From NCBI GenBank assembly GCA_947623455.1, contig OX392534.1, positions 10,364,001-10,428,000 on the forward strand: a stretch of 64,000 nucleotides of DNA, in the 5' to 3' direction. The stretch's first letter is position 1. Each line of letters starts with the position of its first letter. A program made the position numbers and the translations under genes. This document shows, in pieces, positions 19,701 to 58,740 of the stretch. This stretch comes from Mimachlamys varia (lineage: Eukaryota; Mollusca; Bivalvia; Pectinida; Pectinidae). Under the pieces are notes generated by a model, which saw only the letters and a list, made by a program, of their open reading frames with translations, had not been told where the DNA came from and ran no database searches.

Positions 19701-20403
19701 GAACGGTCGTCTGTTAATACGGCCAACAGAGGAAACGAACAATGTAACCTCTCAAGGTCGTCTGCTGTCAAGGTCGACAGAACAGCGGGCGCCATCTGGT
19801 ATGGGTCACACGCGATCTATAGCACGTCGAAATATTAGAGCAGTCGCCTCTTCTGATAATGCTTCAAGCTCTTTGTCGACTCCAAGAACGCCACACCCTC
19901 CTTCCGTTCCGCGTCCATCCGGATCACAAACCCGTCGTGTGCCGACCCTCCCGAATATTGTCGGCCATAGTCAGCCTTCAAGGCAGCCCACTACGACCGC
20001 CAGAAACAATGCCACCTCGACATCCAGAAATACCCCCTCAGCTACCAGGAATTCCTCCTCAAACACAGACACCCGACCACAGGGCTCCACAACTGCTGGT
20101 CGACTAAGGGCCAGGAACAGAGAGGAGCAGGAAAACTCGGGTAACCGAAACATTCGCGAGCGGCTTCGAGAGAGTAGGAACAGACTAGATTCTCTTATGA
20201 CTACTTTTTCATCAGAGTTAGATAGAGGGCGCAACGATATTGCCGCCTTCCAAGACCAGCGAGAGCGCAGGCGTCAAGAACAGCTCGATGAAGTACGTGA
20301 CTTGGGAAGGAGGTTGGGCCAAGTTGCCACGGAACTCCGACAATTATTGGATCACAGGCGTCAACTCCGGGACGATATTGAGGAGACCATTAGCGAACTG
20401 TAG
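13756..20403 (+). CDS. RING-finger protein with a TRAF-type zinc-finger-like segment and C-terminal coiled coil; likely E3 ubiquitin ligase
   Basis: Two coding exons, 13756-13907 and 19290-20403, give 421 residues. Exon 1 ends ...ATA TG|GTGAGT and exon 2 starts CAG|T, so the split codon becomes TGT (Cys51). The joined sequence gives a full C3HC4 RING: C48-x2-C51-x9-C61-x3-H65-x2-C68-x2-C71-x15-C87-x2-C90. After it, C115-x4-C120-x-WKG-x-L-x2-L-x2-H132 resembles part of a TRAF/RNF41-type zinc finger. Residues 150-320 are Ser/Thr/Pro/Arg-rich and probably disordered; the last 85 residues are Arg/Glu/Leu-rich with coiled-coil periodicity. RING proteins of this layout usually recruit E2 enzymes and transfer ubiquitin. 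The substrate is unknown. Confidence 0.88.
13908..14619 (+). other. Intron 1 of the RING gene, 5' part
   Basis: Begins GTGAGT. Contains a TA microsatellite near 14452-14463 and a run of about 20 G at 14539-14558. No other feature is seen. Confidence 0.6.
14620..16225. repeat. 84 bp minisatellite inside the RING gene intron
   Basis: About 19 tandem copies of an 84 bp unit (core ggagggggtcaatattaact); some copies are 90 bp through a 6 bp insertion near gtacatgtacc. Both lengths are multiples of three and the unit lacks stops in one frame of each strand, so open frames of over 430 codons run on both strands. Blocks of several units are repeated as higher-order groups, for example about 15050-15290 and 15480-15720. 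The intronic position and G-rich strand bias argue against coding. Confidence 0.93.
16226..18119 (+). other. RING gene intron, middle part
   Basis: AT-rich, with many tacatgta-like words. No exon, RNA gene or tandem repeat recognised. Confidence 0.5.
18120..18700. repeat. 38 bp minisatellite, about 15 copies
   Basis: Units carry gtcatgattttgttagctga then gtgatacccctaaaacca. Copies degrade towards both ends; variants with gtcgtatttttattaaccga occur near 18560-18620. Intronic to the RING gene. Confidence 0.88.
18948..19215. mobile_element. 252 bp near-perfect hairpin transposon with 8 bp target duplication, hAT-like
   Basis: Element 18956-19207 starts CACAGGGACC and ends with its complement GGTCCCTGTG. 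The arms are complementary along almost their whole length and meet at ggtcataaaagcttttatgacc near 19082. It is flanked by TTCTAATC at 18948-18955 and again at 19208-19215, a perfect 8 bp direct repeat. Eight-base target duplications are typical of hAT transposons, and a CAGGG-containing terminus fits. It carries no gene, so it is a MITE. It lies 75 bp before the splice acceptor of the RING gene's second exon. A diverged relative is at about 48365-48530. Confidence 0.85.
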
Positions 20404-29865: not shown

Positions 29866-32800
29866 ATGCGAAATGGCCTTAAAGGGGCTATCGCACACGG
29901 ATATACATATGTTCTTATAGCGATATGCCTGATAATAACACAACAGCCGACTGTCTCGTCGGAAGAGTTGGGTAAGTTGTGATATATGAGCGAGATCTGA
30001 ACCACCGCGTCCTCAAACTGTTCCCATTTTAACACACATACACTGTACGTTGTTACGAGGATATACAAGTCCTCGATTCTTTATGTCAAGTTATTATATA
30101 CAGTCAATTAGTTGTTATTAATTCCACAGTTTATTGTTGTTATCAAAGCGTAACTATTTTGTCAATTCCCCATTAATGCCAACATATATACCTACATGAT
30201 TGGTGTAGGTACCCCACCCATACGTACAGACTACCGAATACCGTTATACAAGTACTAACTGTCGTACTGGAGACCACACCTGTATACATGGCGGGACGAT
30301 TCACCTACAGCACTGTCGATAATTAACGTCTATTATATACGGGTGTGACCCACAGCTGATCAGTATGACCTTGTTCTACCCCCCACACCCATTGTGGAGG
30401 TCAAGTCATCCCCCAACAATGTATAACGACTTCTGTGTTAATGACTGTGTAATGACTTACCTGGGCATTCCTTACCTGTTTACTCATGCGTGTCGTGTGG
30501 CCCGAGTACCCAGTCTGGACCTAGACCAAGATTATACAGTATCCTAAAAGTGTGACTCTTCTCAATCTCCTGGTGGTGTATAGGACAGCAGGACATATGA
30601 AATAGAATCTCAGTATGTTTTCGATATTTAATATGAAACTATATTATAGCATTAGTAGAACTGTTCAATAGCAGGGATGTATGTACATGTCTATTACGTA
30701 AATCCTTGGGTCTAGTATAAAATGGTTTTATACGTCTCTGGTAATCAAAATTATCGACATGGTGTTGTACTGCTACATGTATATGATATACATATGTCTG
30801 TGTACCTCTCCGTGGCTTTATTTTTCATCCCAGGTACAGGCCTAAATTAATCTATCAAACCGGTAGTTCACCAGAGACGTATAAACTACTTTTATAAGTC
30901 TTCGGGTTGACATTTTAATGACATGTTTATATATTGATTTCACAGCTACACAGATAAGGTACATGTAACATTCGTGATATGTACATTGTATGTACTTCAG
31001 AGTTTCGCGATGTAGTGTATAACTGTATCGCACTCTAAAATGGCCTCTTTACCCTAAAAATAGAGACATACCACAGGGAGGGATCAAGATTTACCTGCTG
31101 GAACTGAAAGCCTTTCACTTCGAATTACAATTAATGTCATCATACAAATACTGAATTTACATGAGTTATTAACTTATTTTATTTTTACTAGTAATACACA
31201 AAACAGACGTTACAGGGAAGTGTAGACCAAGATGTTATGTTCACCATAACACCAGAAATGAGATTTATCAAGGTCACCACGTCAAGGTTACTATATATAT
31301 ACATATGTACATGTATACGTGGTGACCAACCTGTAAGACAATCATTTGACACATTTTGTGGTAAACAATATCATCGTAGCAGACACAGGGATTAACCTTG
31401 GACATGTGGAATGTGCTGTATACGTATACTGGCACACTGAATACATATGTATATATATGGGCACCGATGTTATGTTTCCAAATGTTGGACACATTTCAGA
31501 CTATCCAATGTTTCAATAGTCATTTGTTTGTATTTTGGACTTCTGTAAGTGATTCTGAAAATATTTTCGAAAACGCCGTTTTAGCTTGTATTTTGGACTT
31601 CTGTAAGTGATTCTAAAAATATTTTCGAAAACACCGTTTTAGCTTGTATTTTGGACTTCTGTAAGTGATTCTAAAAATATTTTCGAAAACACCGTTTTAA
31701 CTCTACTGACATCATTTAATTGTGAGGTGTTTAGTCCTTTTTATTTCAAAATTATACAGTGCACAGGGCACAGTTTAAATATTTAGGCGTCTGAGACTCC
31801 TAGTACACCTACAATTTCACCTTGCAGAAATTCGTGTGTGTGCATATTCCTGACCCAAACATTGAAAAGTGTTGTTGAGAAAAAAACAAGTTCAGAAAAG
31901 TGGTTATTAAAAAACTCCAGAATGATGTATATTAATGTTGTCCGGGTATAGTGTCTTTGAGAAGAAATATGTCATCATTTATTTAACATAACCTGACTGG
32001 TGTGTTTTGTGATCTTTTGAATATAATGAAGTTGTACATGTAAATACATGCCCTATATTGTGCTGTAAGTTTTTTTCCATGCAACCCTAACTTCTATAAA
32101 ACGTAACCCAAACTCCTGTAAAACGCAATCCTCACTTCTGTAAAACGTAACCCTAACTTCTGTATTCCACTCTGGTCTAAGTTTCGTTACGTCACTATCT
32201 ACAAAGGTCCTATATTACAGGTCAGGTTGCATGTTTATACTTGACCAGCAGTGACACTGACGCCCACAGACATGTATCCACACAGCGTTTTCTGCTAAAA
32301 ACGTTGATAGTATTGTAGACTTTACAGCACACCTTACTGTCCCAGGACGTACGATACCGGCCCAGACGTATGTAGGTTATCACACAGGACTGACGTAACG
32401 CGCAGACACTGTATACCTTTCGGCTAATCTCCGCGTTATGTAACGAGATCCCTCGAGGGAAAACGACATCATATCAGACACGAGGAGGTGTTACTACAAC
32501 TGTAGTCGTCGTTTTAACTACAAAAATGTATACAAGTGCATGATAGCGACACTCCCATCACCAATAAGCTCGCATGAATTAAAATCCCTATACACTGGAG
32601 CTCACTATATAGCTACCAATCTCAAACCTTTATCCCAACACGGTTTGATATATGGGTTTTAGTCTTCCAGTATCAAACTCAATCTCTTACTTATGTCACA
32701 TAATGTTTATGTCAACTCTTGAATTTTCTCCAAGGTTTCAGCTTCAGATGAACGCTTGACTGTATTGCCAAGACTACAAAAAGCACCATAATTAGTTAAG

Positions 32801-35800
32801 CTATCTTCTAGTTTCACCATCTTCCCATGTTTTCATTATCCCGTTGAATCATATACAATAGCCCACTAATTAACGTCATGGGTAAGTCGTTGCTCTATCC
32901 CGATCCCCAATTACCCTCCAAACTGTAGTTAACCCTAGGCCTCCGCTTCACCGACAACTCTCGGCTTCAATACTCATTTTTCAATCGTCCTGCTGAAATG
33001 ATGACATGATAAGGAGACATGATTTATCTCTATCATTAACAACAGAACGTACAGCTCTAGCATATACAAAAGGTAACATAATGTATCAGCATAGCCGAGC
33101 AGCGAGACAAAAGGTCGACAAGAGGGAAAACAAAGAAGACATGGCCGTCTGCAGTCTTCTGTCTGTGGTCTTATGTCTGTAGGCATTAATGTATACTAAA
33201 GCAATAATCTGTCGAACCTAATATGACAAACACATACTCATGTTGAACACACACCTGACAACACTGTGGCGCAACCAGTTGTCAATAAAGATAGATAAGG
33301 GTAATGGATGACAGGGTTGTTTTGATACCTAACATGACGTAAGTCTCCAAGTCCTGTGCATGTTAGTCATACTAGTCCAGGACTTTGTCCACGTGTTGTT
33401 GTACTACTACATTAATTACATGTGTCGGCGTCATACCTTACCGGTCCCCGGTCATATGTCTCATGTGTCGGCGTCATACCGGTCCCCGGTCATATGTCTC
33501 ATGTGTCGGCGTCATACCGGTCCTCGGTCATATGTCCATGTGTAGGAGTCATACTGGTCCCCGGTCGTATGTCCATGTGTAGGAGTCATACTGGTCCCCG
33601 GTCATATGTCCTTGTGTAGGAGTCATACTGGTCCCCGGTCGTATGTCCATGTGTAGGAGTCATACTGGTCCCCGGTCATATGTCCTTGTGTAGGAATCAT
33701 ACTGGTCCCCGGTCGTATGTCCATGTGTAGGAGTCATACCGGTCCCCAGTCATATGTCCATGTGTAGGAGTCATACCGGTCCCCAGTCATAGGTCCATGT
33801 GTCGGAGTCACAGTGGTCCCTCCTGTCATATGTACATATGTCGGAGTCATACTGGTCCCCGGTCATATGTACATATGTCGGAGTCACAGTGGTCCCCGGT
33901 CATATGTCCATGTGTCGGCGTCATACCAGTCCCTGGTCATATGTCCATGTGTCGGAGTCATACCGGTCCCCGGTCATATGTCCATGTGTCGGCGTCATAC
34001 TGGTCCCCGGTCATATCTCTATGTGTCGGCGTCATACCGTTCCCTGGTCATATGTCCATGTGTCGGCGTCATACCGGTCCCCGGTCATATGTCTATGTGT
34101 CGGCGTCATACTGGTCCCCGGTCATATCTCCATGTGTCGGCGTCATACCGGTCATATGTCCATGTGTCGGCGTCATACCGGTACCCGGTCATATGTCCAT
34201 GTGTTGGAATCATACCGGTCCCCGGTCATATGTCCATGTGTCGGCGTCATACCGGTCCCTGGTCATATGTCCATGTGTTGGAGTCATACCGGTCCCCGGT
34301 CATATGTCCATGTGTCGGCGCCATACCGGTCCCTGGTCATATGTCCATGTGTCGGCGTCATACCGGTCCCCGGTCATATGTCTATGTGTCGGCGTCATAC
34401 TGGTCCCCGGTCATATCTCCATGTGTCGGCGTCATACCGGTCCCCGGTCATATGTCCATGTGTCGGCGTCATACCGGTCCCCGGTCATATGTCCATGTGT
34501 TGGAGTCATACCGGTCCCCGGTCATATGTCCATGTGTCGGCGTCATACCGGTCCCCGGTCATATCTCCATGTGTCGGCGTCATATCGGTCCCCGGTCATA
34601 TGTCCATGTGTCGGCGTCATACCGGTCCCCGGTCATATGTCCATGTGTTGGAGTCATACCGGTCTCCAGTCATATGTCCATGTGTCGGAGTCATACCGGT
34701 CCCCAGTCATATGTACATATGTCGGAGTCATACCGGTCCCCAGTCATATGTCCATGTGTCGGAGTCATACCGGTCCCCAGTCATATGTCCATGTGTCGGA
34801 GTCATACCGGTCCCCGGTCATATGTCCATGTGTTGGAGTCATACCTTACCGGTCCCCGGTCATATGTCCATGTGTTGGAGTCATACCTTACCGGTCCCCG
34901 GTCATATGTCCATATGTTGGAGTCATACCTTACCGGTCCCCGGTCATATGTCCATGTGTTGGAGTCATACCTAACCGGTTCCCTGTCATATGTCCATGTG
35001 TTGGAGTCATACCGGTCCCCGGTCATATGTCCATGTGTCGGCGTCATACCTAACCGGCCCCCGTTCATATGTCCTTGTGTCGGCGTCATACTGGTCCCCC
35101 GGTCATATCTCCATGTGTCGGCGTCATACTGGTCCCCGGTCATATCTCCATGTGTCGGCGTCATACCGGTCCCCGGTCGTATGTCCCTGTGTCGGCGTCA
35201 TACCGGTCCCCGGTCATATGTCCATGTGTTGGCGTCATACCGGTCCCCAGTCATATGTCCATGTGTCGGCGTCATACCGGTCCCCGGTCGTATGTCCATG
35301 TGTTGGAGTCATACCGGTCCCCAGTGATATGTCCATGTGTTGGAGTCATACTGGTCCCCGGTCATATGTCCATGTGTTGGAGTCATACCGGTCCCCGGTC
35401 GTATGTCCATGTGTTGGAGTCATATCGGTCCCCAGTCATATGTCCATGTGTCGGAGTCATACTGGTCCCCGGTCATATGTCCATGTGTCGGCGTCATACT
35501 GGTCTCCAGTCATATGTCCATGTGTCGGCGTCATACTGGTCTCCAGTCATATGTCCATGTGTCGGAGTCATACTGGTCCCCGGTAATATGTCCATGTGTC
35601 GGCGTCATACTGGTCCCCGGTCATATGTCCATGTGTCGGCGTCATACTGGTCTCCAGTCATATGTCCATGTGTCGGCGTCATACCGGTCTCCAGTCATAT
35701 GTCCATGTGTTGGAGTCATACTGGTCCCCGGTCATATGTCCATGTGTCGGCGTCATACCTAACCGGTCCCCGGTCGTATGTCTATGTGTTGGAGTCATAC

Positions 35801-38800
35801 TGGCCCCTTGTCCCATGTCCATGTGTCGGCGTCATATTGGTCCTCGGGGGGAGGGGGGGGGGGGGTCCTATGTCCATGTGTCGGCGTCATACTGGTCTTC
35901 GGGGGGTCCTATGTCCTTGTGTAGGAGTCATGTCTCTTACCCATGTCAGAACTATACTGGTCGTGTATCATGATCATATATCCATGTGTCGGTAGTTATA
36001 ATGGTCCCGGATCATATACTGTTATCAAGTATAGGACTTCACTCGTCCCCGGGACTATAAATATCCAAGAGCACATCTTACTTATTTTTACCGCTGATCT
36101 CACAATACTTTCAAAAATACATCTACTGCATGTGTTCATATAAAAATGACTGTTAAGGCCAGATACAGCAGGGGCCACTGGTCCGTGTGATGCTGTATGT
36201 GGTCCCCACACGAAGCATTATCGACCTGAGCCTGATTCCAGCTCTTATCCACCCGGGCTACACAGCTGTTGGGAAATTTAAAACTTGCACAAAGGTAGAC
36301 GATCATGACGTCACGGAGATAACTGATATCCGTGTCACACAAGGTCACACTTCCATTCATTTACCACGTGGCGTTTGAGTCATACGTACATGTACACACA
36401 TACCCAGAAAACCCAACACCCATACAAACCAACGAGACGTTACGACGGCGTTAGTGTGAAACGAATATTCATGATTTAACGTAAATAGTCGTGCTGAATC
36501 AACATGACTGATCATGACCCACTAACAGTGCGTATGTAACATTATAAGTGACGTTCTGATTCTGAGGACTTCCCTAGACTGACCTTATACAATCACCGAA
36601 TTAAAGCCAGTCAACCAAAACCGCAGACATTTTAAATATGGCGACAACGTACACGGTACCGGTGTAAGATCAACGGCCTTTTACAAACAGTTTGGTGATT
36701 GCAAAGTACTACAGTATCTCCGACCTGTTAATTACCTGTATCACATACTGGGTACCAATCACATGTACTTCATTTTAACAGATTTCATTGCATAAATACA
36801 AACGGACCGGACAACAGGCAAAGCTTTGGTCCTTTCACGGAATTCCGTGGTCCTTTCCTTTCCATAGACAAGTTCTTCCTTAATACCACAGACATTGTAC
36901 AAAAAGACTTTCCTTGATTTAGTTGTTGTCGACCGCCTATTTGTTACCGTGTGGAAGTTACGTAGCTGTGTGTTACGTCCGACAACTGTGGTCATTTCAG
37001 GACAACAATCGGTTAGCTAGTGTCAGCTAATTCAGGCGCATTTTGTTGATTGAAATCGTTCCTTCATTTGTTTTGCATTTAAATTCAAATCTATATAATG
37101 TTATTTTTCAGTGAACTACGAAAAAAACGACTGTGATCGTTTGTACATAGTAAACGATATTGACGTGTACCGACTCGAGTCGTACCCACGTCAAGGCATC
37201 AACACCGGCAGAGACAAGTGCTTCAACAAGTTCCAAGGACCAAACAACAAAAAACTCAAGATCTATGTCTACGGAGTTTCCATCGGTAGTTGTGGTATCT
37301 TCGTCAACATCTACGATGGGGACGAGAAAATGTCTAACGACCCTAGGGTAAGTACGTAATTATAGAACAACACGTTTGTGTCCTGGAGCTCTCCGCGAGG
37401 GGTGGGGTCGAACTCCTTTCCCCGGTACACAGACTATGAAAGACATGCTACACCACATATGCTTTTTATTTGCATGCAGCATATTTTCGGATGTTGTAAG
37501 GTCATCTGTGCGAGAATAAATTGACTGTGAATAGAAAGATAGGGAGGCATTGAATCAAAAATGTGAACAAAGAGTTGTGTAATTGAGTTCACATTTTGGT
37601 TCAACGCCGACTCGCAGTCAATTGATCCTTTGAGAAATTGTCTCAAATATATACAATCAAACTGCTATTACGTCGTGATATTGAATTAGACAATTTCACA
37701 AAGATGACTTTAAAAAAGAAGACCAAATTACTTTTTAAAAAATCGATTTTTGTTTTCCGAATAATCATTTTTTCTAGTCGGTAAACTGAAAAGGCTCCCT
37801 AAAGCAGAACAGATCCCAGTCAATCAGTCATATTATACTATATACGGTGGCAGAGCGGTTAAGGTGTTCCGGCATTATACCAATAGCCCTCCACCTCTGG
37901 GTTAATTGCGAGTTCAAAACCCGCGTGGGACAGTTGCCAGGTACTGACCGTAGATCGGGGGGTTTTCTTCGGGTACTATGACTTTCCTCCACTTCCAAAA
38001 CCTGGTACGTCCTTAAATGACCCTGGCTGTTAATCGGACGTAATACAAAATTAACCAAAGTTAGCTCCATAGCTGATATTAAGTAAAACTATAGCTCACA
38101 TTGAGTATGATTACTTATTTGTAGGACAATATCCAAGAAAGATAATAGATATGTGACATTGTTTTATTACAGTGGAGCCTAGGTTGTCGTAGTCCTGGGA
38201 AGACCGTGTTCGAATCCTTCTCTAGTGAGGTGATAGTCCGACTAGACAAACCAGTGGCAGACTCCAGCAGCCTCTACCAATTCCGAATCTACATCACCAA
38301 CGAGAACGGTTGGTTCCTTTTTCCTTAATTTATATGGAACGGATCATTTCCTGTTTTTGTCTTTTCGTTCCTAAAGTCGCTTTTACACAGATGACTTAAA
38401 TCTATCATTGAGTCTATTCTATTGTAGGACCGGAAGTTGACCTTTCCGAACCCAGTATGTCTGACGGCGGAGCATCATCTGGCGTCATTGCCGGTATCGG
38501 CATTGGTGTCGGCCTGGTCGTCGTCGTCATCATCGTCGTCGTGGCGATCGTCTGCTGGCGAATGATGGGGAAGAAGGAGAAGTATGGCAACAAATCCCCC
38601 GCCGTATTCACTACTTGTAAGTTCAAACTCTCCGAATTCATTAGATTTTTCATCCAATTCTTTTTACTTCCGTCTGGAGAAACAAAGGAACATTTTTTAC
38701 TTAATTCTTCTCCCTCTCCGCCCTTTCTCCTTATCACCCTTCAATTCTACTTCTTCCCTCCAACTCCTTTCAACTTTGTCTCCTTCGTGTCTCCCCCTAC

Positions 38801-41259
38801 TCCCCCTCTATTCTCACTCCCTTTCACACTATTTCTTTTTTCCTCCTCTCTTTCCCAGTATGTTCCTATTTTCATCTTCTATTTGCCTCCGTTCTCTTGT
38901 CCCCCAATCGGTACTTTACTCAGCTCGTTTCTTTACCCTTCCCTCCAACTTTTCAACTGTTCCCTTCTCTGCCCCCTCCCTAACCATTTCTGAATCCAGT
39001 GTGCCTCTCCAACTCCCTTGTCCGTTTCCCTTTCCTTTCTTTCTCACTTTTCCTCCTTTAACTCCATTTTCTGTGTCTCCTTTCTCCCAAGTCCCCACTA
39101 TATACTTCTCTTCTTACCTTGCTCTGCCCCCCCCCCCCTGCTCCCACTCTGGTCATCTCTTTAGCTCCCGTTACTCCCCCCAGCCCCCCCTCCCCCCAAA
39201 AAAAACAGGCACACCACAAGACTACAATGTTTCATTTATTTTGACTTTCTGAGATGTTTATCAAATGGTTGAAAAGTTATTCAGGAAAATATTTGAGTAT
39301 GATTTGTTAGAACTTAGAAAAGACAAATGTTTTTCTATCGGAAGATGTTGGCACCCAAGTCAGTTGTTCCGTTTATCATTATAATAGGCAAAGTCGTACT
39401 TAGATACATCGAATTTTCTAGTATTTCATGGATATGATTGTGGTGTTAAAATTACAATTAAAACACATAATGATATCATACTCGAAAATCGAGGTTTCCA
39501 AGATCTGCATCATTTAGGCTTTGCCGAGTTCGACTAGTTTTTTAGTGGCTGTGAAATGACATCAGTGGTATTATAGTATTTAACTGAGAGTTGACCAATG
39601 TCAATGGGTCACTCAACAGCTCTGTTGGTCACCTGTGCAGTGTCATTTAGTCGTTGTCCAGTGTAGTTGAGCCGTTGTACAGTGTTGTTGGTTAATTTTC
39701 TTAGTTTAGTATCTGGTGTAGGTGACGTTTGTCGCTCGATCTCTTGGTGGTCCAATAGTGCGATGACGAGGCGACACCAGACACCAGCCAATCAAGCTTA
39801 CATCCGGGTTATGCACGCAAGTGCCGTGTCAATCTAGGTTCAGTAATGGAAGACAACCCGTTGGTCGATATTAGTTGATTGTTTCTTCTTTAAAGAAATA
39901 AGTTCATGCATGCATAATTGATAAAACACGAGCTTTTTCCTTGGAACAACGAAAACTGGGGTAAAATAGAATGACACATGTATATAGAATTTGTTTTTCT
40001 GTGATTTTCATTAGCATCGATCCACCCCGCCACACCCGTGTCTTCACTTACCATTTCCTTCTCATCACTGTGTTCCTATTCTCCTTTCCTATACCGTTTT
40101 CTATCCAGCTCCTCTCCTATTTTGTTCAGGACAGTCAAATAGTTCAATAGTGACTATATAAGTAAAACAGGCGACTGGATAGTAAACCTATCATGATTTC
40201 GGCTATCTACGTTCATAGTGAGTATGGTGAGTACCAAGTCTGTGTCGTTCGTATCAGTAGAATTAGTATATGTATGGTTGTACGTCACCAAGGAATCTCG
40301 ATATGCTTCTTAGTTCTTGAAGACAGATAATCTGATTGGATGAAATGACATTGACACCATTTGTATCCAATCAGAAATTGCCTCTGTCAAGAAAGGCTAT
40401 TTTACGGGGATGGGAAAAAAAGAGAATTGTGTTTTGACCTAGACGTATTTCGTTTACAGCTACTTCGAACGATCCGCCTGTCAACGGTATCTTAAAACGA
40501 ACGGAAAGTAAAGGGCGTGGGAGCAAACGCCGTAATAACCGGCCTGCTTATGGAGGCCATGACAACCAAGCTTATAGAAGTTCAGTAGACGGTGACGATT
40601 ACAGCAGTGTTAATGGCGCTCCCAGCACCGAGTCCACGCGCGGGGGTATAGACCTGCATTACGAAGAAGAAGTTGCCAGAAAAGAAGGTCGGACTTCCTC
40701 CCACCGATCGAACCGCCGACGGAATGACGACTCCACGTCCGATGATACTGGAGACAGTGTATTTCACAACAAGGCATTCGTAGACGACGAAAGAAGTGAT
40801 AGAAGTTTGCGCGTGCGCCCCGACCGACGACGTCGGGATCGGGATGATAGTAGTGACTCTTACGTCAGTAGCTCACGTGGGGCGGTAAGCTACATTACAG
40901 ACACAACAAATCGTACTCGCACAGACTCACCCTCCCGGAGCACGGACGAGCGGGGCAGCCAATCATCGACTACCGACGGAGCGCCCGGCCACTTCATCAA
41001 GGGCGATAACGCGCGGAGGAGTGGGCGCAGCCGCAGTCACAGTAGATCGTCAACACAATCAGGTCAGCGTCGACGACCGCGTGTCTCTCATAGCGCGGGA
41101 GGTGACGTAAGTGACGGCAGTAGTTCACACAGGTCAGGTCAACGCCCTAGTAGTGGGGGGTCACGTCGACACAGGTCAAGGTCGAGGGAAAGAGAAAAGA
41201 AGCCGTCGCCGTATATCGGAGCTTTTGCTGATGCTAAGAAAAAGAAACGGAAGAACTAA
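29866..41259 (+). CDS. CUB-domain single-pass receptor, isoform with tail A (488 residues)
   Basis: Five exons: 29866-29971, 37112-37347, 38173-38308, 38428-38616, 40460-41259. All junctions are GT/AG and the phases match (1, 0, 1, 1). Exon 1 encodes a signal peptide (hydrophobic YVLIAICLII, likely cleaved near residue 31). Exons 2-3 give one domain of about 120 residues with four cysteines, YPRQ, FVNIYDGDE and a closing YQFRIYI, the pattern of a CUB domain with two disulfides. Exon 4 holds a Ser/Gly stalk and a Val/Ile-rich helix at about 178-203, then RMMGKKEK. Exon 5A gives a 265-residue tail rich in Arg, Ser and Asp ending in a lysine cluster (KKKKRKN). CUB domains usually bind ligands or partners outside the cell; the tail matches no enzyme I know. 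A second terminal exon at 46058 is in the same phase. Confidence 0.82.
31530..31703. repeat. 58 bp tandem repeat, three copies
   Basis: Three nearly identical units starting gtattttggacttctgtaag, then tgattctaaaaatattttcg, then aaaacaccgttttagctt. Units 2 and 3 are closer to each other than to unit 1. Confidence 0.9.
32083..32165. repeat. Short degenerate repeat, 22-24 bp units
   Basis: About three to four copies of acttctgtaaaacgtaaccc. The taaccc word looks telomere-like, but the period is wrong for a telomeric repeat. Confidence 0.65.
33424..35990. repeat. 37 bp minisatellite, about 69 copies, in intron 1 of the CUB receptor
   Basis: Units read ccggtccccggtcatatgtc then catgtgtcggcgtcata. 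Common variants are gtcggag, gttggag, ccccagtc, and a 5 bp insertion giving cataccttaccgg. Because the unit is 37 bp and has no stop in any forward phase, all three forward frames stay open for up to 500 codons; this is an arithmetical effect. A G-run interrupts the decaying end at 35846-35865. Confidence 0.95.
35991..37111 (+). other. Intron 1 of the CUB receptor, 3' end
   Basis: No exon or repeat recognised. The intron ends ...TTATTTTTCAG at 37111. Confidence 0.55.
37843..38060 (+). mobile_element. tRNA-derived SINE in intron 2 of the CUB receptor
   Basis: The head looks like a tRNA with pol III promoter boxes: box A-like tggcagagcggttaaggtg at 37848 and box B-like gcgagttcaaaacccgcg about 50 bp later. 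A body follows (gggggttttcttcgggtact, atgactttcctcc), then a tail ending ggctgttaatcggacgtaat then acaaaattaacca. This layout of tRNA head, conserved body and LINE-like tail is that of invertebrate SINEs. A tail fragment of the same family is at 28600. Confidence 0.78.
38690..39225. repeat. Pyrimidine-rich low-complexity tract in intron 4 of the CUB receptor
   Basis: Roughly 530 bp dominated by C and T on the plus strand, ending in C-runs and an A-run near 39200. It yields overlapping open frames in two forward phases, which I regard as composition artefacts. Lies just after the donor of the transmembrane exon. Confidence 0.75.
39226..40459 (+). other. Intron 4 remainder, before tail exon A
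   Basis: No exon recognised. The acceptor of exon A is TTCGTTTACAG at 40449-40459. Confidence 0.5.
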
Positions 41260-42000
41260 ACGTAGGATTTCTTTTCATAATAATATTTTCTATAATTTGT
41301 GACAGGTTTTACTATATTATATAATATGATTTTACATGACTACGCCGCAGCTAAATAGTTTCGCCTCGTGTTATTGTTGTGATTAAAAGCTGACATTTGA
41401 AGGACTCTTTCTCACAAAGCCATACAATACATCGAACAGCAAATCAAACCGTACTTAAACAAGGTGAATCAATAGTTTTACCCTGACAGAGGTGCTATAA
41501 ACCCCTTTCTTGATGAGTTTGGAATATTCCATTGTGGATTTTGATTGTACCATATAAAATGTTTGGCGAAAGAAGTTTGTTCTATAAAACGGACGCCTGT
41601 GTTTTTCCTGTGTAGATCAGCCGGAGACAACTGTGTGAATCGTCTCCTTCCCTTTATGTGGGAGCTACACACCAGCTAATGTTCCACTCATCACGTGACC
41701 GACATGTGACATCGTGTAGTTCAAGAGTGGAACTTGTATCCATGACAAAATCGTCAATTTGTAACCTCTGGGTGTGATTTATAAAGACTGTGAAGTTATA
41801 ATCTAAAGCACACAGATTCAGTTACAAAGATGTTTTGGAGAGGAGAACGATGTGAAATACAAAATGTTCGTGTTGTACCATAGTTGAGAATCTACTGCTG
41901 AAATCGCCGGTAACGCCACCTGTTGATGGCAACTTGGCGACATCGACATCGTTTTACTTGTGAAATGATAGCACATTGCGAACGATAATAATCAACGACA
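41260..42000 (+). other. Probable 3' UTR after tail exon A
   Basis: Follows the TAA at 41257-41259. An ATTAAA variant lies at 41382-41387; canonical AATAAA motifs occur only in the repeat beginning at 42001. Confidence 0.4.
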
Positions 42001-42480
42001 GATATGGCTTGTGGAACACTGAAACGTGTCGTAAAGGACGTTTGTAATAAACGACAGATATGGCTTACAAGTGGAACATTGAAACGTGTCGTAAAGGACG
42101 TTTGTAATAAACGACAGATATGGCTTACAAGTGGAACATTGAAACGTGTCGTAAAGGACGTTTATGATAATCGGCCGATATGGCTTACAAGTGGAACATT
42201 GAAACGTGTCGTAAAGGACGTTTGTAATAAACGACAGATATGGCTTACAAGTGGAACATTGAAACGTGTCGTAAAGGACGTTTGTAATAAACGACAGATA
42301 TGGCTTACAAGTGGAACATTGAAACGTGTCGTAAAGGACGTTTGTAATAAACGACAGATATGGCTTACAAGTGGAACATTGAAACGTGTCGTAAAGGACG
42401 TTTATGATAATCGGCCGATATGGCTTGCAAGTGGAACATTGAAAAGTGACGTATTGCAACGTACTAGTTAACGACAGATA
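42001..42480. repeat. 60 bp tandem repeat, eight copies, five with AATAAA
   Basis: The eight units are exactly 60 bp apart, with core gtggaacattgaaacgtgtc then gtaaaggacgtttgtaataa. Five units contain the poly(A) signal AATAAA (starting at 42046, 42106, 42226, 42286, 42346). Units 3 and 7 replace it by tgataatcgg and unit 8 is diverged. Unit length is a multiple of three, so open frames occur on both strands. The array lies between the alternative terminal exons of the CUB receptor. Confidence 0.93.
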
Positions 42481-42647
42481 TGGCTTGTGGAACAAAGAAA
42501 CTTCGTATGGCGTGTGTACAACATTGACTGACTGGGCGATGATCATCGGTGTGCGTGCGCAACACTGTTTGGGGTTAATTGAATCTGTGAAAAAAAGACG
42601 CTATAACTTGAAGTTAGGCGATACATCTTGTATGCTTTTAACTGATA

Positions 42648-42674
42648 TACATATATATATATATATATATATAT
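42648..42674. repeat. (AT)n microsatellite
   Basis: About 12 uninterrupted AT dinucleotides. Confidence 0.9.
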
Positions 42675-45600
42675 CACACGTACGCAATTATGAATCTGTA
42701 AGAAAATGTATACTTCTGGCAATTACGTCACATGTTCTGGTAATTTGATCACGTGAGAGTTAACTGATCAGGTTATATTGTGAAGGTTAATTAATAATTA
42801 CTGTTTATTGTCCTATCATCATCTGATGTAAGAGGAGGCAATCCTAACGTCACTTCCATTTGTGATAAGGATCAAACTTCATACAGATAAATCTGCCACT
42901 AAAGAAATATTTCCTGTATTGTGACTTGGGGATGATAAGCCTGAGGATTTGATATTTCAATACATAAGGAATGGCTTCAGATACATATCCCTTTTGCAAT
43001 AGAAAAGTGCTTAATTTGAAAAAAAAATCAGATTCTTGCTGTAATCCAACTGAATTATAAATAAAAAGAATCGCATATATTACCGTTAAAGTAACCAATG
43101 ATTGTAGAGAGTTCTACTATTCTGATTCCTAACATTGTATTACCAATTTGTAGTTTTGTAGAATAGTATAAACTTATTTTTGAAACACCTAACATATACA
43201 TATACCTTGGTTTTGAAAAGATACAGCGATCTCTTAATTCTCTAATACATGTCTGTACGTGTATTGCTAAATAACGGGTTTTCAGTACAAATGTATATTG
43301 TGACGGTTTAATATTATTTTATAAATATACAAAAGTTAAAATCAAGTCTTATCTGCCCCAACCCACACCGGGCGTTTACACATGTTATATCGTAAGTTTT
43401 TTTTTATATTTATGTGACGAAGAACAGCATGACTGGCAGATCCTTGTTATATTTATACAGAGATAAAGAGAAGTGCTCAGTCATAGTATAGTTATTATAT
43501 ATATATAAATATTTGATATACCGCTAAAGTGTTACTTGCATGTAAACTACAGTACAATTATTGTTACGTATATATAATATATAACCATTGCCAGTTACGT
43601 GTGTGTATATTATAAACGATTGTTTTCATACATTTCATTGATAATGTAGAATTACCTAATTTTGTATATTACTTAGCGAATCAAGGGAAGTAACTCCAAT
43701 TGCTACTGTGTTATTGGGGCCAAGTATTACCTACATACATACATGTATGTACGTATAAGCTGTGTAGGACATTAATTTGGGACAGATGATGAAAGTCAGG
43801 ATCCTTGCTAATAAACCTCCTTCATTTATCAGTTCCTGTCTATGATTTATTTTCGTCTGAAATTGTAGTTTTTAACCACTGGTACTTCATCGTTTCCCTT
43901 CAATTATAGAGTTTTAATATATACCAGTAAGAATCATTGAGAATGATATCCGGATTTTAGGTTTTCATTAAATATAACATCAATTTGTGGGAAAGATAAG
44001 TTTGCAATTTTGTATATCAATCTGGCCTTACAGGTAGGTGTGCCACGTACGTAGAATGACTATGCTCTAACCAACTTATCAATAGACACCAGTGATCAAT
44101 CTACGTGCGAGTCCCGGGTCCAGTACTCATACAACTATGAAAGGACTCGTAGAAATTATGGAAATACTTCAATTTAACATTGTGGGACCCATAGTTTTCT
44201 GCAATATTTACAAAAAGGACCCATGGAAAAAAATTGTAAATTGATCACTGAGACACCAATTAGGAACGAGATTGAAACAATTTTATTGCTATCATCTCAA
44301 TATTATACAGAAATTACAGCTAAAAAAAACAGAAATAAGTATTTGTACCTAGTATAAACTTGATCGTCATTATTTGATCCTATTGTAAACTCTCATCTCG
44401 TTAACAGGTACATGTAGACAGTGTATGTAAGAACCCATACTTAGAAATCAGGCTTAAGCAACGATAACATTTAAAACCATATGCTCCATAAACACCCATA
44501 CTGTCGAAATGAAACGTGTGCTAAAACGAAAATTTTTGCGAAAATGATTTTGAAAACAAAATGGCATAGTTATTTTTTTTTGTATCTTTGAAAACCTTTT
44601 AATGACAATGTACTGCGTCAAACGTAAATATACTGATTTTTTTTCGCATTAATTATCAGTAGTCCTACTTTTTTCGTTGTGACGTCACGCCTGCAGCAAG
44701 TACATGACGTCTTAGAACGCAATCGCCTCAAAAGACAGTTTTTCCCATTTCAAGGTTGCTATGAAAATGTTTCGTTTTATATGAGTAAATGCCACAAATC
44801 TTGATTATGTGATAAAATCATCGTACACACGTTTTCGTTTCGTACGAAATTTAGGAAACCCAGTACAAATTTTTCTTAAATTTCATTTAAAGCGGAAACT
44901 CGTGTATGGATTGTTATTAACATGAATATTATGTGAAATATGAAAGTTACATTTCATAATTATTTAGTCACATGTTTGCCAAAAAACACCATACTTAAAG
45001 TAATACGGCTGCTGATAACAGCATAAATCATACTTAAAAGTGCGTTCGCAGCTGCTGACTCAAAGTGGGGCGAGTACTCTCAGAACATGTTGTAAATAAT
45101 GACAATTTATCATTCAATATTTAGATCATAAATAGTTTAAATGGAAGAAACGATCAATTTTTAATTTCTATTTCCACTTTTCTGTGATGTTTTATGCATA
45201 TTTTATGTATACAAGGGAATACATGTATAAAAGTGACATTAATTATTTTTTCTACTTTTTTATTTGTAACGTTCTAAGTGCTCCGGAAATTGATGAATAA
45301 TGGAGATTCATAACCAAGTCACACAATATTGAGAAATTTTAGAGACAAACAAAATGACGTACATATTAAGTATATGAAAAGCGGAAGTGAGGTACATGTA
45401 CTGGTATATTCGGTAATGATTCGGATGTAAGATGGATATAAGAGTGTAAATGTGCTGTTATTTTACATGTACACTTGTTTTTCGATAATAAACACATGCC
45501 ATACGACAAAATAATCAATTTCACGGCTCATTGTTTTGTTTTTGCATGTTCTAACTCTTCTTACTAATATTTGTACCTGTAATTTTCCCATCGAGAAATA

Positions 45601-46057
45601 CAATTGTCACCCACGACAAATTAATGCTAGATATTTATTATATTTGAAGTGTGTATCATAGTAAACAAGGATGAAACTTGAGAAATAAAAAAAATATTAC
45701 ATAAATCTTTTAACACCTGTTTTCTAATTGAGAGTAAAACATCAAGTTCAATTTTTCTAATACAGTATCACATCTTATTTGTAAACAAACATGCTGGAAT
45801 AGGAAATATATCAGCTGAAACATCGCAAAGGACGTTTTTGTCTAAAGCAGTGTGAATTTTTTATATATGTATTTACACCAGGGCATTGGCAGCGGCTTGA
45901 CGTTGGTTACACGATGTAGCACATTCCATTCATTCCCTAGCTGCCATCCTAAGCGTCCTTTTAATATTTTATTGGAGTACAACTTGGATGAGGAATGTAG
46001 TTTTTGTATTAATCTAAAATCGATTCAGGCGATCTAAAGCAGTCCTTTTGTTTCCAG
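42675..46057 (+). other. Intronic stretch before tail exon B
   Basis: Strongly AT-rich with no splice-bounded open frame. A TGACGTCA-type site occurs near 44681. The region ends with the acceptor TTTGTTTCCAG at 46057. Confidence 0.5.
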
Positions 46058-47394
46058 CTGAAACCAGAGGAGGCGATTCCGTACACTTCGAAAACACGCT
46101 TGGAGGAAGTCGGAGTCGTGCTGCAAGGGCATCCAGTGACCGCAGCTCGACCACCAATGGCTACCGTTCAACTTCCGGTTCACAACGCGGACGGTCTTCC
46201 CATCACCACGAAAACAACGGCTACGTATCAAGTAACGAATCATCCGTGACATCAAAAAAAGTCAGTCGCAATCCTATTCCAATCAAGGCTGGAGATGGTG
46301 CAAAATTCGAAATGGCGACAGAAACGACCCATCGCTTCACAAAACGAGACGGATCTGTTAGAAAAAAAGTCATTTTAGATCACGACAAAGAAACAAAAAC
46401 AAACACGAAGGATAGAGCTAAAGATGAATTCGACAGCGCTAGGGTAGAGCTCATTCAAAAATCAAAGCCAAACGATAACACCCATTCACTCGTCCGATCT
46501 AGTTCAGAAAAACGCAATACCAGATTAAGAAATACGACCGCAAGTCGAGCTGAAACTTCCAGTGACACTCTGTCGTCTCATTCCGACAAGCGACCAAGAC
46601 GTGATGATCGACAGAACGACAGACCACGTGATGATAGGTGTGAAGAGAGATCAAAAGACAGCGCCACACGGCGGTCAAGTTACCGCGAATCTCAGTCACA
46701 GGATCGGCGAGACCGGGTCGGCAGCACTAGAAGCAGGAAAAACTCCACATCACGTTCTGTTCGACCCAGTTACAAAGACGACTACGACGCAGGTGGACAG
46801 AGGCATCGATCAGAGCAATCTCACAAACATCAGGAGAAAACATACAGCGATTACGACAGCGACCATCGGAGTCGGCGGCGAGAAAAATACGACAGAAATA
46901 CTGGTTATGACAGTGACGCACGAAAACGTCACCGTGACTACGACAGCGATCGCGGAGGCCGTGACCGTGGCTACGACAGTGACACGCGGAGACGTCACCG
47001 TGACAACATTGATCGCGGGGGACGTGACCGTGGTTACGATAGTGACGCACGAAAACGTCACCGTGACTACGACAGTGATCGTGGAGGCCGTGACCGCAGT
47101 CAACGCCGTTACGATCAAAGTGACAGAAACTACAGTGACTGTGAGAGTGACCACGGTAGGAGACGCGAGTCCACCCGCCGTACACGTCCTCGCACAGACA
47201 GGAACTATATAGACTACGATAGTGACGACAACAGTTATCGGTCAAGTCGACATCGTCACAGTCAGCGTCAGGACCACCGAGCCAAGTACTACAGTGACGA
47301 GGACCTCGTGGACAGTCGGAGGCAGCGCGGCGGAAGTCTGTCCCGGAAGTCACGTCCGCGCAGTCAAAGCTACAGTCGCGACAGCAGGAGATAG
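46058..47394 (+). CDS. Alternative terminal exon B of the CUB receptor: RD/YDSD-repeat tail
   Basis: The exon follows TTTGTTTCCAG and begins CT GAA, so it accepts the same phase-1 donor (T|GTAAGT at 38616) as exon A; either exon completes the same TCT serine. Used with exons 1-4 it gives a 667-residue protein with a 444-residue cytoplasmic tail. The tail is highly charged and probably disordered, rich in RS, RD, SR and YDSD dipeptide-like motifs. Residues corresponding to 46903-47097 form three 21-22-residue repeats of the form GYDSDARKRHRD...GGRDR. There is no enzyme domain. It looks like SR/RD-type domains of nuclear factors, yet position and phase tie it to a membrane protein. It could also belong to a separate downstream transcript, but no start exon for that is seen. 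Confidence 0.72.
46903..47097 (+). repeat. Three in-frame 63-66 bp repeats inside exon B
   Basis: Units of 66, 63 and 66 bp encode GYDSDARKRHRDYDSD-GGRDR-like segments. Third positions differ between copies (gac/gat, ggc/ggt), which fits selection on protein. Confidence 0.88.
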
Positions 47395-54490: not shown

Positions 54491-57400
54491 TTAAAATCGG
54501 TTACTGGATTTAATGAAATTTTGAACACATTTAAAAATGTAGTCATTTTGTTCCTCGGATAACTGGGGAGAACCACAGAGAATAACACTGAGAGTTACAT
54601 TACAATAACAGGAAACAATATCAAATAAAATTTCACGCTCTCTTCTATACAATATACAATCAAAAAAGTAATGATATACGTTTTCGCAATCATTACCACA
54701 TGCACAGGTTGGATCATTTACTATATTTACTCTAAACAAATCATATTTTAAGCTACTACAAGTATGTCGTAACCTTGTGTGTAACACATTTAATCTTCTA
54801 TTTCCGGAAAGGTAATAATTAGGTAATAAATCACGATTGTTTTGTATTTTGGATTTAAAACTTTTAATGGATGGCTGCTCTCTGACATCAATAGGTAAAT
54901 TATTCCACAATCTAACAGAAGACGGGATAAAGGATTCATAAGAAGAAGACAATCGAACATTTGGAACGGTATAATTTTCATTATTTCTAACATTATACAT
55001 GTTACGCTCTCCTACTCTTAGAGGAAGAAGGTTATTGAAATAAGAAGGAGTTAAATTATTATGGAGTTTAAACATCATTGAAAGTTTTCGAAGCTTTCTT
55101 CTTTCAGATAATGGTTGGAGCTGGGATTCTTTATACAGAGAATGTTTACTTGAGAAAGATGGCATGCCGGTAATAATTCGTGCTGCCTCAAGTTGAACTT
55201 GTTCTAGTTTATTAACATCTGCCAGAGAACAACCATCCCATACTTCACAAGCATATTCCAATACAGGCAACACAAATACTCTATAAATTCGTAATAATGT
55301 TTTCCTACTTAACAAAAATTTGAATTTCCTTAATACCGACACCTTTTTCATACAAGTTTTTATAATTTCTGCTATATGAAGAGACCACTTTGCATCTGAA
55401 CTGAACGTCACGCCTAAATGTCTATGGTGGTCAACTAAATTCAAAGTTTTGTCTCCAAAAGTAAGATGCAAGGGTAATACATTTTTCGAATTTGTTATTA
55501 GCAATACGTCAGTTTTTTGTGGGTTAAAATTAGTTAGCCAGTCTTGGGACCATTTATTAAGCTTTTGCAAATCATAATTAAGAGATCTTTGAATGTCTAA
55601 AACAGATGATGAAGTATACATTAATGAAGTATCATCAGCAAATAAACGAGATATACTATTCAAATTATCAACAATATCATTTATATATATTAAAAACAAA
55701 AGGGGCCCCAAAACGCTTCCCTGTGGTACACCAGCATTAGTGTAACCTGTATTGGAATACACATTCTTAACTAAAACTTGTTGCTGACGATCAGAAATAT
55801 AATTTTTCAACCATTTCAAAAGACCACCTCTAATACCATAAGCTTCTAATTTAATTAACAAACCTTTGTGCCATACACGGTCAAAAGCTTTAGAAATGTC
55901 GCAGAAAATAAGACAAGTGTGTTTTTTTTTCTCCAATGAATAACAAATATTGTGGTATATTTCTATAAGTTGGTGTACTGTTGAGTGACATGACATGAAA
56001 CCAGACTGTTTTTCATAGAAAAGAGAATTATCTTGAAAATAATTGTAAATATGTTTAAAAACAACTCTTTCAAAAACTTTGCCGATACAAGACAATAGCG
56101 TAATTGGTCTATAATTGGATACTAGATGTTTATCACCCTTTTTGAAAAGGGGAAGTACAATGCCTTTCTTCCAGATTTCAGGAAAACAATTTTGACTAAA
56201 AGACATATTAAACAAAATAGACAATGGCTTGCATATGGTATTTGCAGTAAATTTTAACATATGGTGACTTATGGTATCATGGCCAGATGCTTTCCCTAGT
56301 TTTAGAATTTTTAGAATATCACAAACTTCGTCGGATCTGACTATAATAGAATCAAGGAAAGAATTAGTTCTACTATTGAAATTGGGTAAAGGAATCTCCC
56401 TATCATCTATAGTTGAAATAGAACAAAAATAATCATTCAGAATATTGGCTTTTCCGACATCACCAAGTTCAATATTTCCATTATGTGGGTTAGTAAGTGG
56501 TGGAATAACTTCCTGCGACTCAGATTGTTTATATAATTTACGTACAAGTCTCCAATAAGTTTTAGGGTTACTAGTGTCAAGTTTATCAATTATGTCCCCA
56601 ACTTTATCGTAAAATAATTCCTTGGCATGCTTTTTCATATTATTGACTTTATTTCTTTGTTGTTTATATTTTGTTCGATTGGAAACGGACTTAACACGTT
56701 TGCATACTTTATGTAATCTATCTCGTAGCCGCATAGCTTTCCTTAGTTCTGAGTCCATCCAAAGTTTATCTTTTGGTCTAATAATAACTGATTTTTTTTG
56801 TATACATTCATTAGCAAAGACTAAAAACTGCTCGCTGAAATTGACACCAGCTATATCAACGGAATCAAAATTTCGAAAAAATGTATTCCAATCAAAAGCA
56901 TCAATCAAATAATTTAACTTATTAAAATCTGCATGTTTATATGACCAAACTTGGCGGGTATAGTTACGAGAAAGATTTAAGGGTGTAGAGAGAAATACTA
57001 CACATGCGTCATGATCACTTATATTGCGGTCTATCTTAATTACGTGAGAATCGGTATATTTTGAACAATCACTCAACAAAATTGGATCTAATAAACTTTG
57101 TCTTGTTAATCCGTATCTGGTAGGTTCGTTAATAACATTTGTTAAGTCCATTTCCAACATAATTTGATTTAAAATATGGTTATGCGATATAGTTAAAAAA
57201 TCAACATTTATATCTCCAACAATTACCACATTGGTTGTAATTTCTAAAGCCTTCTCAATAGAATATTTAAAATTTTCCCAAAATGGATGACATGAACCTT
57301 CCGGACGATATACAGTACACAGTAATGAAATGTCCCTACCCACTTCAATTTGTATCCAAATAATTTCTCCGTCTGCAAATTCCAGATCATATCTTCGAGT

Positions 57401-58072
57401 ACATTTTAAAGAGTCAGAATAGTATACTAATAAACCTCCACCTGAGAAATTTCTATCTTTTCGAAACGGTTCCATATAACCCGGTATAGCTAAATCAGAA
57501 AATGGTACATGGCGATCTAAATGTGTCTCGGTAAAGCACAAGATATCATATTCGTCTGTGATAGTTTCAATGTATTCAAATTTGTTTCTGATACTCCTGG
57601 TATTTAAATGAAATATCGTCAATTCATTTTCTGCGGGTCCTGGATTTGATTCAACGTCCATATATGTTAATATAAGCAATAACAGAATATAAGAAAATTG
57701 AGAATTACGGAAGATAGACAATATAAAGTCGCTAAGTAAGCCTATGATTTTTTTCATACAACCATAATATGGCATTATACGTGTACTACGACCTCCGTAT
57801 GTGGGTGGACACAAAGTCGGACCGGATGTTTCAGGACTCTCGCATAACAGTAAACATTTCAGCACTAAAATAATAGCAATGTTATATTTATGAGATAAAA
57901 CTTGCATTAAACTTAAATAGGCGAATAGTACACTCGAGTACACAGCTGTTTTGAACAGCATAGCGAAAGATTCTTTATTGTAAATGAAATGTATTTTTTT
58001 GCTTACAGAATGTGTTTTGGAATAAAAACCACCAATGGCACACCTCCATGTATCAATACAACATCCAATCAT
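54491..58072 (-). CDS. LINE retrotransposon polyprotein: 2A-like motif, AP endonuclease, reverse transcriptase
   Basis: One uninterrupted frame of 1193 residues. Residues 1-138 have two hydrophobic stretches and end in the 2A-like motif DVESNPGP (139-146), known to make ribosomes skip a peptide bond. An AP-type endonuclease follows at about 150-360 with HLNTRS, TETHL, YRPEG, GDIN and SDHD, all expected catalytic positions present. The reverse transcriptase at about 630-900 has NYRPITLL, DISKAFDRVWH, GVPQGSVLGPLLF and the active-site FADD (811-814). The C-terminus has a Cys/His cluster (CACG...C...HYFFDC, 1123-1139). No RNase H. The layout is that of the CR1/jockey group of non-LTR elements. 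With no stop or frameshift, this copy looks young and possibly active. No separate ORF1 is seen; the N-terminal piece may replace it or the 5' end may be truncated. Confidence 0.93.
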   Translation of the reverse strand: MIGCCIDTWRCAIGGFYSKTHSVSKKIHFIYNKESFAMLFKTAVYSSVLFAYLSLMQVLSHKYNIAIILVLKCLLLCESPETSGPTLCPPTYGGRSTRIMPYYGCMKKIIGLLSDFILSIFRNSQFSYILLLLILTYMDVESNPGPAENELTIFHLNTRSIRNKFEYIETITDEYDILCFTETHLDRHVPFSDLAIPGYMEPFRKDRNFSGGGLLVYYSDSLKCTRRYDLEFADGEIIWIQIEVGRDISLLCTVYRPEGSCHPFWENFKYSIEKALEITTNVVIVGDINVDFLTISHNHILNQIMLEMDLTNVINEPTRYGLTRQSLLDPILLSDCSKYTDSHVIKIDRNISDHDACVVFLSTPLNLSRNYTRQVWSYKHADFNKLNYLIDAFDWNTFFRNFDSVDIAGVNFSEQFLVFANECIQKKSVIIRPKDKLWMDSELRKAMRLRDRLHKVCKRVKSVSNRTKYKQQRNKVNNMKKHAKELFYDKVGDIIDKLDTSNPKTYWRLVRKLYKQSESQEVIPPLTNPHNGNIELGDVGKANILNDYFCSISTIDDREIPLPNFNSRTNSFLDSIIVRSDEVCDILKILKLGKASGHDTISHHMLKFTANTICKPLSILFNMSFSQNCFPEIWKKGIVLPLFKKGDKHLVSNYRPITLLSCIGKVFERVVFKHIYNYFQDNSLFYEKQSGFMSCHSTVHQLIEIYHNICYSLEKKKHTCLIFCDISKAFDRVWHKGLLIKLEAYGIRGGLLKWLKNYISDRQQQVLVKNVYSNTGYTNAGVPQGSVLGPLLFLIYINDIVDNLNSISRLFADDTSLMYTSSSVLDIQRSLNYDLQKLNKWSQDWLTNFNPQKTDVLLITNSKNVLPLHLTFGDKTLNLVDHHRHLGVTFSSDAKWSLHIAEIIKTCMKKVSVLRKFKFLLSRKTLLRIYRVFVLPVLEYACEVWDGCSLADVNKLEQVQLEAARIITGMPSFSSKHSLYKESQLQPLSERRKLRKLSMMFKLHNNLTPSYFNNLLPLRVGERNMYNVRNNENYTVPNVRLSSSYESFIPSSVRLWNNLPIDVREQPSIKSFKSKIQNNRDLLPNYYLSGNRRLNVLHTRLRHTCSSLKYDLFRVNIVNDPTCACGNDCENVYHYFFDCILYRREREILFDIVSCYCNVTLSVILCGSPQLSEEQNDYIFKCVQNFIKSSNRF
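57635..57658 (-). other. 2A-like ribosome-skipping motif DVESNPGP
   Basis: Codons on the minus strand read D-V-E-S-N-P-G-P, an exact match to the known consensus D(V/I)ExNPGP. It is preceded by a leucine-rich stretch, as in functional 2A peptides. Skipping is expected between the last Gly and Pro, separating a 145-residue hydrophobic leader from the endonuclease/RT protein. Similar motifs have been reported in non-LTR elements of sea urchins, molluscs and trypanosomes. Confidence 0.85.
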
Positions 58073-58740
58073 GGAGGATAAAAATGGTAACTTGTAGTAT
58101 AGGTATTTAGGTGGTCAGAGGTGGTTCCATGAACATGTGAGGACATCCTAATGACGAAATAAGATAAGGGAGAGTAAGACTGACAGGAAGAAGAAAACGA
58201 TAGAAAAAGTGAAGAGGAAAGAAAAAGAGGGAAATAGGAAAAGATAAAGGAAAAAAGAAATTGGGATTCAAATGAGGAGGGAAGAGAATGCATGACTTAC
58301 AGAATTGTCGAGTCGAAAGGGGCCGGGGCGATAACTTAAGATAATGTGTATGTACAATTAATGTAAAGCTATACGGACACATAATAAATTGAAGATAGCT
58401 GAGTCTTACAACATGCACTCTACGAACAATTATTAAGATACAGTTAAAATTGATAGAGGGATGCTCAATTGTATCATGGATAACAGATAATATACTAATA
58501 TACAAATGTACACGTAAATATTTGACAACTACGCACACACATATGCACCACATACATATTGATTCACACATATACGTACGAATGCGCGCATGCTCCATTT
58601 CGCTAATACAAGGATATGCAAATGGAAATAGAAAGTTGGAGACATTTTATTTATTTTTTTTTGTTATATTGTAAGAATAAAATAAAAATATATGAAAGCG
58701 CCTTCTTTCAAGTTTTTTATAGACTGATGAATGAAATCAG
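58073..58740. other. LINE 5' flank, purine-rich then AT-rich
   Basis: 58140-58270 is GA-rich on the plus strand (CT-rich in the LINE's direction) and could be part of the LINE 5' UTR. The rest shows no gene. The 5' boundary of the LINE cannot be fixed. Confidence 0.4.

Follow-up and report, generated by a model that had tools for sequence, protein, structure and literature searches.

A scallop gene predicted to join one CUB ectodomain to either of two unrelated, disordered tails

Does a single gene of the scallop Mimachlamys varia fit one extracellular domain with either of two different intracellular tails? The question arose from a sequence-only reading of a 64,000-nucleotide stretch of DNA (hereafter the window; contig OX392534.1, positions 10,364,001 to 10,428,000), in which a signal-peptide exon, a CUB-like ectodomain, a membrane-helix exon and two candidate terminal exons appeared to lie in one frame.

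Exons of the gene and their surroundings

All exons of the gene lie on the + strand. Exon 1 (29866-29971, 106 nt) carries the start codon and ends in phase 1, and its hydrophobic, signal peptide-like N-terminus is a putative signal peptide as judged from the sequence. Exon 2 (37112-37347, 236 nt) encodes the first half of the CUB domain with Cys1-Cys3, exon 3 (38173-38308, 136 nt) the second half with Cys4, and exon 4 (38428-38616, 189 nt) a stalk, the transmembrane helix (GVIAGIGIGVGLVVVVIIVVVAIVCW) and the juxtamembrane KKEKYGNKSPAVFTT. These four exons total 667 nt and translate openly into terminal exon A (40460-41259; 800 nt including the TAA stop, a 266-residue tail) to give 488 residues, or into terminal exon B (46058-47394; 1337 nt including the TAG stop, a 445-residue tail) to give 667 residues. 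Both terminal exons follow a CAG acceptor and begin with CT, either of them completing the identical serine. Intron 1 (29972-37111, +) contains a 37-bp minisatellite of 64 copies (33439-35847).

The introns of the gene are GT-AG, their acceptors rank between the 87th and 96th percentile among the AGs of the window by a crude pyrimidine score, and their donors match 6 to 8 of the 9 consensus letters; such splice sites are ordinary and alone would not convince, and the phase match between A and B is by itself a 1-in-3 coincidence. What raises the exon model above chance is that orthologous proteins, described below, carry the same joins, and with them the proposal that both tails share one frame (667 + 800 and 667 + 1337 nt) has held. 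Two terminal exons, each with an acceptor and a stop and in a common phase, with isoform pairs in two species, make up a predicted arrangement of alternative last exons.

Polyadenylation hexamers follow both terminal exons: ATTAAA at 41382 and AATAAA from 42046 onwards after A, and AATAAA at 47800 after B. Five AATAAA lie inside a 60-bp tandem repeat located 3' of exon A (41989-42486, +), which may serve as its poly(A) region. Over 41260-46057, AATAAA occurs 9 times against 6.5 expected, i.e. without clear excess.

The window holds several other elements. A 42-bp minisatellite of about 146 copies, the unit of which resembles a 3' splice site, occupies positions 1-6254; TTTTCAG is present in 131 copies in 1-6258. 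After the last of them comes a membrane-helix-like exon that has a GT donor (about 6154-6254, NIPVLVGAGAGSLVLVAIIVILYKRRRHR), and 14 of the 131 sites are open in frame to that donor, so that a variable in-frame exon extension is conceivable. An 84/342-bp tandem array (14605-16226) has long open frames on both strands, and an open frame at 19246-20403 (+) combines a RING-like zinc-finger part that falls below the Pfam cut-offs with a C-terminus that looks coiled-coil-like by eye. A non-LTR retrotransposon with an uninterrupted 1207-aa frame (54491-58114, -) encodes an endonuclease and a reverse transcriptase; near the start of this frame stands DVESNPGP, which we take to be a 2A-like motif.

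Orthologous isoforms and the place of exon B

A first protein search, scored on residues 30-222, returned six proteins, all from scallops: Mizuhopecten yessoensis isoforms X2 (P0001, tail A) and X1 (P0002, tail B), Ylistrum balloti (P0003, tail B), Pecten maximus isoforms X2 (P0004, named LOC117330303, tail A) and X1 (P0005, tail B), and Argopecten irradians (P0006, tail B). The start MRNGL is also found in P0001-P0005, while exon 1 is missing from the P0006 model. In all six proteins the tail is joined at the predicted serine, as in the two M. yessoensis joins, ...AVFTTS|ASNDPPVNGILKR and ...AVFTTS|ETRGGDSVHFENT. A second search added a fragment that holds an A-type exon (P0007) and a protein of Tegillarca granosa (P0008), named CUB domain-containing protein in UniRef, which has the CUB-like part, the membrane helix and tail A; a third added two fragments (P0009, P0010) that match exon 2 and continue into non-matching sequence past both of its edges. 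Among the matches listed, these searches thus reached four scallop species, Tegillarca and three fragments, with no named oyster or mussel relative; they needed shared 5-residue words, and absence elsewhere is not implied.

Both tails are listed together in two of the five named species (M. yessoensis and P. maximus), B alone in two (Ylistrum and Argopecten) and A alone in Tegillarca. According to a paper that used the RefSeq pipeline, an alternative variant had to be backed over its full extent either by a single long alignment or by RNA-seq data of one sample (PMC5737279). The 'isoform X' names suggest that the scallop entries passed this same rule, and the proposed two-tail structure rests on isoforms of this predicted kind. 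The central claim of the sequence-only reading, one CUB ectodomain with two alternative, unrelated and highly charged tails, is supported by the orthologous pairs, which show the same. We observed that the B tail of M. yessoensis (P0002) is without a near-C-terminal stretch that the window and three other scallops have, either through a true deletion or through a wrongly called intron.

The alternative, in which exon B forms an independent gene downstream with a start of its own and the predicted fusions come from the chaining of gene models, would agree with the position of B (4.8 kb beyond the stop of A and 7.4 kb away from exon 4), with a shared phase that chance could supply, and with an in-frame ATG at 46312 inside B. 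Against this, B is fused to the CUB ectodomain in all four scallop species with a named match, two of which also have the A isoform. That ATG, the first methionine of the B frame, lies 85 codons into a block that is conserved right from the acceptor. The interval between A and B yields a single CUB match, at chance level (residues 15-43, E 2.2), and its four ATG frames of at least 40 codons are all either 60-bp repeat or short. A genome-wide search with the ectodomain (975 Mb, best candidates scored) found its own locus and one chance-level match on contig 12 (E 1.8), and within the window the ectodomain query recovered the exons that encode it plus pieces at chance level. Residues 1-77 of tail A and 1-147 of tail B, used as genome queries, had one matching place apiece, again with the best candidates scored. 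By the assembled sequence, the gene is single-copy, at one locus. Because B is conserved from its acceptor onwards and the locus is single, we consider a separate gene for B very unlikely, and the observation that had been named as able to overturn the two-tail model is accordingly disfavoured.

Splicing from inside exon A to B was considered as well, GT[AG]AG sites being present at 40885 and 41107, but none of the four B isoforms contains any part of A.

The ectodomain and the two tails

The ectodomain had been described as CUB-like, and structure prediction bears this out: it models as a CUB beta-sandwich of about 110 residues, followed in the orthologue model by a helix at 179-214. Foldseek also returns non-CUB beta-sandwiches, e.g. 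collagen-binding domains, at lower TM (about 0.5). Four cysteines are present in all nine isoform entries (six distinct ectodomains), with spacing that differs by one or two residues. Sequence searches were less telling: no CUB family was among the Pfam matches at E up to 10 for seven relatives, where HMMER filters drop most weak matches and a divergent member is possible; Pfam gave no informative family for the A isoform, tail B and the seven relatives, and NCBIfam no informative match. One PDB search by sequence returned nothing, and another returned weak matches (E 0.019 or worse) in the membrane-helix region only.

Both tails are basic, highly charged and rich in Arg, Ser and Asp, and both are predicted to be disordered, with pLDDT mostly 28-45, climbing to about 55 at the very end of A (models built on 7- and 4-row alignments, the four-row B model being poorer throughout). 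The two tails do not appear related, an hhalign comparison giving a probability of 0.15. Descent of A and B from one duplicated exon was rejected on this value, although a tblastn run with composition correction and filtering off found 22-26% low-complexity similarity (best E about 1e-8).

The composition invites the reading that the tails are RS domains as in SR splicing factors, through which the receptor would talk to the splicing machinery; in its favour are the abundance of R, S and D, the stretch GRSRSHSRSS within tail A and automatic names such as 'pre-mRNA-splicing factor 38B-like'. When each of the nine tails was shuffled 500 times, however, the RS/SR and RD/DR counts fell between -1.6 and +1.3 s.d. 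of the shuffles (RS/SR in the window: 19 against 17.3 +/- 3.3 expected for A, and 27 against 29.0 +/- 4.5 for B), and no RNA-binding family was among the Pfam matches listed. Since these counts match the shuffles, 'RS domain' is the wrong term; the 'RS/RD tails' of the sequence-only reading come down to an enrichment of residues and not of dipeptides, and the splicing-factor names probably follow low-complexity similarity. We regard a link to splicing by this route as highly improbable.

Shared short blocks emerge when the tails are aligned. Tail A features GILK, YSSV, NxxY/F and a C-terminal PSPYIGAFADAKKKKRKN, and the blocks VNGILKR, DNxAYRxS, YSxV and EKxPSPYI...DAKKK are kept to Tegillarca. 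Three NPAY motifs occur in Tegillarca. In the A tails of scallops the corresponding positions read NKAY, NQAY or NKAF (two places) or have no counterpart, which counts against adaptor binding by tail A through such motifs; a single NPGY is present in the B tail of M. yessoensis. Tail B has a conserved start of ~98 residues (DSVHFENTLGGS...NPIPIK..DGAKF...THRF.KRDGS) and a conserved end of ~35 residues (YYSDEDLV.SR...SLSRKSRPRSQSYSR..SRR), and its length varies with a coding 63-bp repeat (46902-47096, +), present in 3 copies in the window and, counted by eye on the alignment, in 2 copies in M. yessoensis and a single copy in each of three further scallops. A reading as an ITIM receptor (pattern [SIVL]xYxx[ILV]) was dropped, no ITIM being present in either window tail; single matches occur in four of the nine tails (P. 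maximus A and B, T. granosa A, A. irradians B).

GILK, present in 4/4 A tails and 0/5 B tails, matches the SILK-type pattern [GS]IL[KR] and presumably belongs to this class of PP1 docking motif. RVxF, which PP1 binding usually needs, was matched in 0 of the 9 tails; this counts against the PP1 reading of tail A, and for this reason we do not class the protein as a PP1 regulator. SILK is described as a second PP1 site alongside RVxF; in Rif1, loss of the RVxF phenylalanine left PP1 binding under 0.1%, and loss of SILK cut it about 20-fold (PMC5437018). In Scribble, a buried SILK is reported not to matter.

How well the tails are kept was compared with the ectodomain. In the closest pair, formed by the window and M. 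yessoensis, identity is higher for the ectodomain (95%) than for tail A (87%) or tail B (85%). Tail A is 89% identical between the window and P. maximus (ectodomain 73%) and 88% between M. yessoensis and P. maximus (ectodomain 75%), which puts it above the ectodomain in two of the three scallop pairs. Full-length tail B, with 11 to 76 gapped positions, is above the ectodomain in two of six pairs and below it in four (tail B/ectodomain: 85/95, 79/73, 76/75, 76/85, 81/89 and 71/75%). The ends of the tails are tighter: the first 75 residues of B are 96, 85, 85, 89, 92 and 84% identical and its last 35 residues 97, 94, 91, 97, 94 and 85%, at or above the ectodomain in 6/6 pairs, and for A the first 75 residues (93, 93 and 96%) and the last 35 (83% in each pair) are both above it in 2/3. 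Tegillarca is far more distant, with ectodomain identities of 36 and 35% to M. yessoensis and P. maximus, and tail A identities of 42 and 39% of aligned positions (76 and 66 gapped). Tail blocks held as well as the folded part suggest that their sequence matters.

This conservation also bears on whether one tail alone is the regular product and the other a rare splice form or annotation noise. The predicted sets list only B for Ylistrum and Argopecten and only A for Tegillarca, as that reading would expect; isoforms are commonly missing from predicted sets. It is countered by protein-level conservation of both tails among scallops (A 87-89% in three pairs, B 71-85% in six), because of which both would have to be translated often enough for selection to act, and we think it unlikely.

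A proposed receptor with two outputs

We therefore return to a scallop gene with one CUB ectodomain and two alternative last exons that give unrelated disordered tails, the product being a type I membrane protein; this model is very probably correct. The protein would consist of a signal peptide, one spermadhesin-like CUB domain and one transmembrane helix, in a presumed type I topology. A transcript that accepts exon A would end there and encode the 266-residue tail, and one that skips A and joins exon 4 to B would encode the 445-residue tail; the two exons would be mutually exclusive, the choice being set by competition between splicing and polyadenylation. One extracellular recognition event could in this manner be wired to two sets of partners in the cytoplasm. 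The most probable candidates to bind tail A would be a PP1-type phosphatase, via GILK, and sorting or PTB adaptors, via YSxV and NxxY; tail B would probably act as a phosphorylatable scaffold through its conserved N- and C-terminal blocks.

More tentatively, and as a reading less likely than not, we propose a bivalve two-output receptor, in which one CUB sensor has its last exon switched between two unrelated disordered signalling tails, the end blocks of which are conserved to about the degree of the sensor or above it. By alternative splicing and polyadenylation the cell would then change what a single ligand means. PP1 and endocytic/PTB adaptors would be recruited by tail A, which the blood clam has too, and tail B, so far seen in scallops only, would be a scaffold gained later.

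Public databases already contain this gene in the form of predicted isoforms, whose names mislead (CWC22 homolog, dentin sialophosphoprotein-like, splicing factor 38B-like). Our literature searches on CUB, scallop and bivalve receptors and on these names found no description of it; one scallop paper that uses the dentin name counts 99 such genes, in a passage that gives no tie to the CUB gene. On this reading, what the databases call a splicing factor, a CWC22 homologue or a dentin sialophosphoprotein appears to be a CUB membrane protein, and the names are corrected accordingly. The gene offers a compact natural case of a small ectodomain with two disordered tails, in which short blocks were kept while much else, the folded part included, has drifted, and the conserved blocks are directly testable as carriers of receptor signalling.

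Among known proteins, spermadhesins and two-disulfide CUB domains (1sfp, 1spp) share 10-14% sequence identity with the scallop CUB; spermadhesins are secreted single domains, unlike the scallop CUB, which would be tethered by its membrane helix. Neto2 and the neuropilins, CUB-bearing type I membrane proteins, have several extracellular domains, whereas the scallop protein has one CUB; the searches made found no link between their tails and the scallop tails, and no named family matched the tail pair. Receptors whose tails differ with the choice of last exon are of a known kind: the genes of the prolactin, leptin and Fc-gamma-IIB receptors have alternative 3' exons and, like the scallop gene, provide one ectodomain with differing cytoplasmic tails by exon choice. 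The scallop tails differ from those in being without a recognised signalling domain, in being charged and unrelated to each other, and in their predicted disorder from end to end.
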